From Pontibacter sp. G13 (GTDB lineage Bacteria > Bacteroidota > Bacteroidia > J057): a stretch of DNA of 64,000 nucleotides. Below are positions 11,989 to 58,338 of this stretch, piece by piece. The DNA is taken from positions 930,001 to 994,000 of the forward strand of contig NZ_CP134696.1 of assembly GCF_031851795.1 (NCBI RefSeq). The letters are read 5' to 3'. The notes beneath the pieces were generated by a model. The model was not told the DNA's origin and did not search any database. It saw nothing but the letters and a program-made list of their open reading frames with translations. How positions within the stretch are numbered: position 1 is the stretch's first letter; each line of letters starts with the position of its first letter. Made by a program: the position numbers and the translations under genes.

Positions 11989-12070
11989 GCTCAGGTGGCG
12001 GAATTGGTAGACGCGTTGGTCTCAAACACCAATAGGGAAACCTGTGTGGGTTCGAGTCCCACCCTGAGTA
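11989..12070 (+). tRNA. tRNA-Leu (anticodon CAA)
   Basis: 82 nt with the acceptor stem GCTCAGG / CCTGAGT and discriminator A. The D-arm holds GGCGGAATTGGTAGACGC, typical of class II tRNA-Leu. The anticodon stem is TTGGT/ACCAA around loop CTCAAAC, giving anticodon CAA (reads UUG). A variable arm and the T-arm GTGGG-TTCGAGT-CCCAC follow. CCA is not encoded. Confidence 0.96.
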
Positions 12071-12158
12071 CAAAATGGCTGTCTCGTTTTCGAGATGGCC
12101 ATTTTTGCATACATAGATTCAGATTGCCTTCAGGAGCCTTGGCAAGATCCTGAAAGGT

Positions 12159-12395
12159 ATTTGGGCGTGCCCCAGCGGCTTGCCAGTATTTCCTCGCCAA
12201 TCATCGGAGGCGCTGGGTCGGAGTCTTCCGGACTCGCTGGCGCTCGGTCGGTGGATGAGGAGCCCTGTTCTGGACATTCCGAAAGGAGTCCATCTCCAAA
12301 GGCCAGCCCCAGCAGCTTACCTGTTCGTAGACATTGTCCCAAAGCTCCACCGACTACTCCTGCAGGTTCCTCACGCCTCCGCAGGCCATCCGCAC
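12159..12395 (+). repeat. Dispersed structured repeat, copy 1
   Basis: A 237-bp GC-rich element sharing its order of blocks with 57704-57894. The blocks are the start ATTTGGGCGT, the 19-base core CTCGCTGGCGCTCGGTCGG (12233-12251), and the end block (cctcacgcctccgcaggccatccgcac, compare ccttacgccgccgcaagccatccgcac in copy 2). A 9-bp stem GTCGGTGGA (12247-12255) / TCCACCGAC (12346-12354) closes a ~90-base arm. It lies 89 bp after tRNA-Leu and 157 bp before the next gene. Open frames crossing it do not look like protein. Confidence 0.75.
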
Positions 12396-57703: not shown

Positions 57704-57894
57704 ATTTGGGCGTATCCCGGCGTGCTGGGCTTTCATAAGGACGCTTGGCCCAATGGTCGCCGGGCCGGTCCCACTCCGTGGCTCGCTGGCGCTCGGTCGG
57801 GGATCTACGGGCGAGAGATCGCCACCCGTAGATCCCCGACTCCTCGTACCTCGGACCACTCCGGGCACCTTACGCCGCCGCAAGCCATCCGCAC
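57704..57894 (+). repeat. Dispersed structured repeat, copy 2
   Basis: 191 bp with the same blocks as 12159-12395: ATTTGGGCGT, the core CTCGCTGGCGCTCGGTCGG (57782-57800) and an end block ending CCATCCGCAC. The hairpin here is a perfect 16-bp stem, GTCGGGGATCTACGGG (57796-57811) / CCCGTAGATCCCCGAC (57825-57840). The first six pairs sit in the same place as in copy 1, but the sixth pair is T-A there and G-C here. Confidence 0.8.
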
Positions 57895-57953: not shown

Positions 57954-58338
57954 CTTTGGCTGAGGCGGATTTCGGCAAATGCGCAGGCTCGTGGGTAATC
58001 CGCCTCCTGCTCGGCTCCTTGGCATCTATACCCATCGCTTCTGGGGCCTGTGTGGCACAGGACAACCATCCTGCCCTGCGGGCGCCCAATCTGCGACTCC
58101 CTGTTTGTTGAGACGTGAGATCCCGCATACATTTCCCGGCCCACAGGCGCCAGCCCGTCGAAATGTTGCGGGATGAGGCAGTTTGTTTTTTGCTGGCATG
58201 GTGGGCAAGTGCTTCGCCGATGCATGGCTTTTCGCACTTAGGAATCGTGGGCGCATGGCATCTGTTCGCGCGCTTGGGGGATTCCACCTCTGCCCCCAAC
58301 ACACAGCCCACGGCTGATGGCAGGCTGGAAAGACGTGA
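57954..58338 (+). repeat. Long direct repeat, copy A
   Basis: 385 bp, closely matching 58469-58854 over its whole length, with a few substitutions and short indels (for example acttaggaatcgtgggcgc in A against cttctgggaatcgggtggc in B). No transposase or terminal inverted repeat is visible. Confidence 0.9.

Follow-up and report, generated by a model that had tools for sequence, protein, structure and literature searches.

The window (the whole 64,000-nt stretch of DNA that was analysed) carries two copies of a structured repeat, both of which contain the 19-mer CTCGCTGGCGCTCGGTCGG, at 12233-12251 in copy 1 and at 57782-57800 in copy 2. Copy 1 lies beyond a tRNA gene and a hairpin with a T-run, and copy 2 beyond a terminator-like inverted repeat. 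The features are as follows, with the minus strand as the putative folded strand of each copy.

11989-12070, plus strand: tRNA gene ahead of copy 1
About 12075-12110: hairpin with a T-run between the tRNA gene and copy 1, seen by eye
12160-12395, minus strand: copy 1, P4 type C, from TTTGGGCG to CCGCAC, with ends taken from family end profiles
12164-12168 and 12373-12377, minus strand: arms of copy 1 helix P1, from the sequence read on the model
12171-12177 and 12211-12217, minus strand: arms of copy 1 helix P2, from the sequence read on the model
12247-12354, minus strand: copy 1 P4, 108 nt in total, with a 9-bp stem (12247-12255/12346-12354) and a 90-nt loop
57651-57684, plus strand: inverted repeat (14 nt, 93% complementary), a terminator-like hairpin without a clear T-run that ends 20 nt ahead of copy 2
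57705-57894, minus strand: copy 2, P4 type A, placed by family end profiles and the match to model R1
57709-57713 and 57872-57876, minus strand: arms of copy 2 helix P1, from the model
57716-57764, minus strand: copy 2 P2, with a stem (57716-57722/57758-57764) and a 35-nt loop
57767-57769 and 57867-57869, minus strand: arms of copy 2 helix P3, 3 bp, every pair covarying across the family
57796-57840, minus strand: copy 2 P4, with a perfect 16-bp stem (57796-57811/57825-57840) and a 13-nt loop

Both copies, the shared 19-mer and the 9-bp and 16-bp stems are where, and as, the original prediction had put them. Stem pairs 1-5 are identical in the two copies; at pair 6 one has T-A and the other G-C. 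The similarity of copy 1 to the rest of the family exceeds chance. Model R1 was made with 26 copies, among them copy 2 but not copy 1, and matched copy 1 at 12163-12377 with 74.3 bits and an E-value of 9.9e-14. Copy 2, as a member of the training set, was matched at 57708-57876 with 155.6 bits.

The repeat had been described as a two-copy one. It is real, but that number was too low, and the complete genome does hold further copies, the lack of which had been named as a point against the prediction. With copy 2 as the query, 43 matches turned up in the same genome (G000; 7.67 Mb, 3 contigs), and three of these were the hairpin read in reverse. R1 gave 150 matches, a floor because all 150 scored candidates passed. 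Scanning of fetched neighbourhoods raised the count to at least 171 copies, of which at least 169 are chromosomal (2 of them partial, under 130 nt) and 2 lie on the 93-kb contig C3. Applied to 39 other relatives, none of them a congener, R1 found matches in just one (G009, seven weak matches, excluded from the own-genome counts), so this form of the element seems narrow. There were no large versions among 107 pattern matches: 87 had a 3′ end nearby, and none of the remaining 20 had a distant one. No match was found in plasmid and phage collections with one flavobacterial query each, or in the plasmid collection with one piece from the own genome. Among the matches listed, the open-licence PMC literature yielded no account of this repeat.

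On the strand used in the original prediction, the element runs for about 190 bp from TTTGGGCG to CCGCAC, with shorter and longer subtypes. Six helices are firmly conserved and a seventh less so. The anatomy on that strand comprises P1 (GGCGT/ACGCC), P2 (CCCGGCG/CGCCGGG), P3 (3 bp), a second short 3-bp stem, the 2-bp hairpin P3a, P4 and P5. The P2 loop is 34-35 nt long in 137 of 167 copies. By a single rule, the P4 of these 167 copies falls into types A (112), B (24, including the two partial copies) and C (31). The type C loop has a near-fixed length and a free sequence: among the 29 copies whose P4 spans 75-94 nt, 26 have a P4 of 82-89 nt. The P4 of copy 1 measures 108 nt, against 79-89 nt in 29 other type C copies. 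Loops that act as guides were considered and rejected: neither P2 loops (162 copies) nor type C loops (29) showed an excess of matches to flanks, type C loops against P2 loops gave no excess over re-dealt partners, and z ranged from -2.9 to 1.1 across the guide comparisons.

Pairing within the element is under strong selection. Among 71 aligned copies, 411 cells showed pair changes on both sides, compared to 110 ± 8 in shuffled alignments and 25-52 with slid structures; in 26 copies there were 119 such cells against 33 shuffled. Helices 1-6 contained no mispair in 78 of the 167 copies and a single one in 62. P5 is the weakest helix, with 80-82% of its cells paired. Covariation extends even to the short helices P3 (3 bp) and P3a (2 bp). 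Alignments A3 and A4 were made to follow the model structure, which lets pairing look better than it is; A2 (MAFFT, with a manually set structure) agrees with them. The input to A5 was preselected for five paired P1 bases, and A5 omits 4 of 36 non-redundant sequences, so its P1 counts are not evidence. Selection on structure, as originally proposed, is therefore borne out across the family, and the family alignment is not one in which stem positions vary without compensation. The covarying hairpin in particular is established on the family, but copies 1 and 2 alone are not a clean covariation pair because their P4 types differ (C and A).

The kinds of mispair point to the strand that folds. 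The 5453 cells of helices 1-6 in 167 own-genome copies comprise 5325 Watson-Crick pairs, 14 G·T, 67 A·C and 47 others. Where two copies at least 80% alike differ on just one side of a stem pair, the result was A·C in 32 cases, G·T in 1 and another mispair in 6, counted over pairs of copies that are not independent; with each distinct helix counted once, the non-Watson-Crick cells were 52 A·C, 12 G·T and 41 others. Mutation bias is not the cause of the A·C excess, since A/G and C/T differences between close copies were similar at unpaired and loop positions (230 and 200). Because an A·C mispair reads as a G·T(U) wobble on the complementary strand, it would have to be the minus strand that folds. 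From this asymmetry we infer that the selected fold is on the reverse complement of the strand on which it was originally drawn. The inference is strong only in this genome; a wider set gave a weak asymmetry (A·C 8, G·T 4, other 9, for P1, P2 and P4). The Flavo-1 model of Rfam, which was made independently, is on the same strand.

These results bear on two explanations that do not require a mobile element. A functional structured RNA (an sRNA or 3′-end element), spread and kept for a cellular role, would account for selection on structure, for wobble of the G-U type on the minus strand and for the agreement with the strand modelled by Rfam. However, wobble is rare (A·C and G·T together make up 81 of 5453 cells), and the tips seen most often in type A, read on the minus strand (TCTA, TCTC and TATC), are not GNRA or UUCG. 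A DNA element that serves the chromosome (gyrase, nucleoid or terminator boundary) in a role like those proposed for REP/BIME, and that spreads through duplication of copies and conversion between them, fits less easily with these data: double-stranded or cruciform DNA offers no cause for an excess of A·C over G·T, and the covarying P3 and P3a point to an intricate single-strand fold.

The element favours the ends of genes. Both neighbours were called for 118 of 164 copies by a home-made codon-usage caller, so the counts are approximate: 57 copies lie between convergent genes, 52 between co-directional and 9 between divergent ones. In a lenient terminator scan of the 164 copies, the 130 nt ahead of the element held a terminator-like hairpin in sense orientation for 53 copies and in antisense for 31; after the element, such a hairpin was antisense in 35 and sense in 18. 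Several features of these surroundings count against a functional RNA. The co-directional copies are split about equally between sense (28) and antisense (24), the 70 nt past the 3′ end show no conservation after the first few bases, and the TANNTTTG box is found on the minus strand in just 1 of 150 copies against 5 of 150 on the other strand.

Neighbouring copies are arranged tail to tail in 17 of 17 cases within 200 bp, 20 of 21 within 400 bp and 22 of 23 within 800 bp. Other orientations occur beyond 800 bp and reach 6 of 29 by 3000 bp. Doublets join unlike P4 types in 19 of 22 cases (P 4e-4 under random mixing), one of the 22 containing a partial copy typed by length alone. Gene-end location, tail-to-tail doublets and the joining of unlike types would all suit a chromosomal role. 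Some ssDNA transposons have a replichore orientation bias. None was seen here (29+/32- and 48+/39- among 148 copies, with an assumed origin position), which weakens the mobile reading.

The flanks of the twelve closest disjoint copy pairs, 85-99% alike, were compared by gapped searches that covered 500 nt to either side. Matching 5′ flanks occurred in 0 of 12 pairs. The 3′ flanks had no match in six pairs, matches of only 15-26 nt in one and shared sequence in five, including the three most alike pairs, with shared blocks of 338-435 nt in three. The TTTGGGCG end is thus sharp in all twelve, and roughly half also have a clean CCGCAC end. The five pairs with shared 3′ flanks may be larger duplications that merely start at the element, and 3′ repeat tracts common to both copies of a pair are also what a chromosomal element spread by duplication and conversion would leave. 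The shared tracts are mosaics of other repeats. Such intergenic mosaics follow several copies on the 3′ side (L418, L420 and L422), for instance as GATCCCGCATA..TGCGGGATGAGGC units, which recur 3′ of copy 2 in the window, at about 58080-58190.

A site next to serB in a Flavobacterium-like genus allowed comparison between species. From 81 genomes, 38 of which had a serB match, 30 loci were read: a relative of the element was present in 13, truncated in 1 and absent in 16. In the 13 loci its place is the T-run with which the serB terminator is marked. Judged by eye, three of the 13 copies are damaged (one without its 5′ part, one without its 3′ half and one with altered P2/P3), which speaks against a kept RNA. 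The P4 tips of the orthologous copies vary by species with pairing kept, as might also be expected of a chromosomal element subject to conversion. The pattern resembles one of insertion or loss, of decay and of exchange among the copies. The same-site presence in 13 loci could also reflect retention for a function, which favours the RNA and counts against the mobile reading. The empty serB sites have diverged too much to resolve a target-site duplication, and the end profiles of the element show no matching ends of the kind that form terminal inverted repeats.

The element resembles REP, REPIN and BIME sequences in its high copy number, intergenic location, palindromic structure and tail-to-tail doublets. 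It differs in size and complexity, with about 190 nt and several helices against 20-40 bp for REP, the length given in an excerpt of PMC3733652. It also resembles MITEs and IS200/IS605 derivatives in being short, dispersed and hairpin-bearing, but its end profiles showed no terminal inverted repeat, and no Y1 transposase gene was found beside copies in the tested loci.

It is very improbable that the element is a REP sequence moved by a RAYT (Y1 HUH) transposase, although its copy number, doublets and gene-end location would suit this and the genome has two Y1_Tnp genes. One of them, RAYT-like (L154, about 1100-2080; G000:C1 near 5488564), has NHIH, WQ and YIHQNP motifs, those listed for Bacteroidetes subclass 2.6 in an excerpt of PMC6006769; according to the same excerpt, genes of this subclass are flanked by atypical structures that recur elsewhere in the genome. 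Its flanks instead carry another repeat, with CGCGGACT..AGTCCGCG arms in five units (three plus two, by eye). The second gene (L153, 1486-1938, 150 aa) has a YIRRQKEHH motif similar to that of subclass 1.2 in the excerpt. Model R2 found no element near either gene, and patterns together with two R models found none in 30 Y1_Tnp loci of other genomes (30 of 44 listed matches). Four element-bearing genomes (G327, G255, G239 and G076) have no Y1_Tnp match. There is also no GT[AG]G at the foot of the hairpin, as the 5′ end of the minus strand is GTGCGG; the element is unlike REP/BIME in this and in the lack of any RAYT link found.

Another idea placed four-helix-bundle 23S-IVP genes (PF05635) inside such elements. 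This idea was rejected because 29 of 30 loci gave no pattern match, with one poor, un-element-like match in the other, and because the own genome has no PF05635 match. Such genes were present in 63 of 80 genomes. In Bacteroidia they lie between other genes (L123-L152), flanked at several loci, by eye, by inverted repeats (e.g., L130, L135, L137 and L145) made of imperfect 7-9-nt tandem units that are different at each locus. No partner gene for the element was found among the loci tested, which counts against the mobile reading.

Relatives occur in other Bacteroidota, as had been suggested, by pattern, R2 and Flavo-1 matches. A short pattern was found in 43 of 395 Bacteroidota genomes and its reversed control in 2; scoring just 7 candidates per genome gave 5 positive genomes of 395, a figure that is not an estimate of distribution. 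The plan GGGCGTG-CCC-P2-GGGTCGGGCTTTCCGCTNCAA-P4-TTTCCGCTNCAATCCCTCACGC, in which both sides of the internal loop are similar in sequence, was seen by a lenient rule in 27 of 30 fetched loci. A scan of named genomes gave at least 119 stretches; among the matches listed, 60 of 80 loci show the plan, with Flavobacterium, Algibacter, Aquimarina, Chryseobacterium and Pedobacter among them. The matches listed include 16 records whose titles name other phyla; 1 of the 16 passed the lenient rule, and that one (L329) has no 3′ end by another test.

These relatives connect the family to Flavo-1 (RF01705; Rfam gathering cut-off 42 bits). The Flavo-1 model matched 43 of 296 Bacteroidota genomes (in 35 cases with a score above the cut-off) and 0 of 14 control genomes. 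It matched 11 of 15 relative loci tested (5 above the cut-off), with three intermediates among those that did not match. It gave no match in the window, none in lenient mode in sets of 5 and 12 loci, and none in the own genome, where 15 candidates were scored. The original statement that the repeat is of no known class that could be named thus stands for the window copies and fails for their flavobacterial relatives, which do match RF01705. Rfam group II intron models matched neither the window nor, in lenient scans, the same sets of 5 and 12 loci. Six Acido-Lenti-1 (RF01687) matches were met elsewhere (L003, 35-535 and 2333-2378), five at a spacing of about 105 nt and one above the Rfam cut-off.

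Models of the two types meet at intermediate elements. The own-type model R2 finds L088-L092 with E-values of 1.1e-11 to 1.9e-6. The Flavo-type model R3 finds L090 at 3.6e-6, L089 at 0.012 and L088 at 0.017, and the own copy L053 at just 0.27. R2 on 25 Flavo loci gave three matches with E-values of 0.43-1, so directly compared (R2 on Flavo loci, R3 on the own copy) the types are not significantly similar. Model comparison thus indicates that the window family is distantly related to Flavo-1 via intermediates, mainly L090. It is the inner P3-P4 part that is related: Flavo-1 has this hairpin with internal loops, on the same strand, in many copies per genome and in Bacteroidota. The Rfam model differs in being a single hairpin of 76 positions. 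Flavobacterial elements of full length have P1 and P2 too; on L116, the model has a P1 arm within an insertion and P2 outside. The window copies go beyond Flavo-1 in P3a, P5, loops of near-fixed length and P4 types. Rfam classes Flavo-1 as an sRNA, which counts against the mobile reading, and a table in an excerpt of PMC2864571, from 2010, gives it as a probable RNA, neither cis-regulatory nor a riboswitch.

We lean towards a non-autonomous, REP-like mobile element that acts as a folded single strand. It is supported by the unmatched flanks of close copies, the covariation, the strand asymmetry, the doublets and the presence and absence at serB. It is weakened by the 3′ flanks that 5 of the 12 pairs have in common, by the weak strand asymmetry outside the own genome and by the lack of replichore bias. 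A trans-acting factor would recognise the folded minus strand, as ssDNA or as RNA copied back, and would place the element near gene ends, in many cases directly after a terminator; copies that face each other would then yield tail-to-tail doublets, as REP sequences do. The moving machinery would not visibly be a Y1 (RAYT) transposase. The original prediction had left the choice between an RNA and a mobile hairpin element, and the latter fits somewhat better than a gene-linked RNA. We consider the kept functional RNA the next most likely reading, though rather unlikely, and the chromosomal element quite improbable.

We suggest, tentatively and with more doubt than belief, that Flavo-1, instead of being a small RNA, might form the core of a widespread class of Bacteroidota mobile elements that move as a multi-helix folded single strand, with loops of near-fixed length and free sequence and with machinery other than the known Y1 (RAYT) transposases. 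Flavo-1 would be recast as a probable mobile repeat by its extended anatomy, by the sharp TTTGGGCG end and by the serB sites found empty. If mobile, the class would be a Bacteroidota counterpart to the REP/BIME repeats, and the unlike P4 tips of its orthologous copies make it well suited to the study of change in long stems that stay paired.
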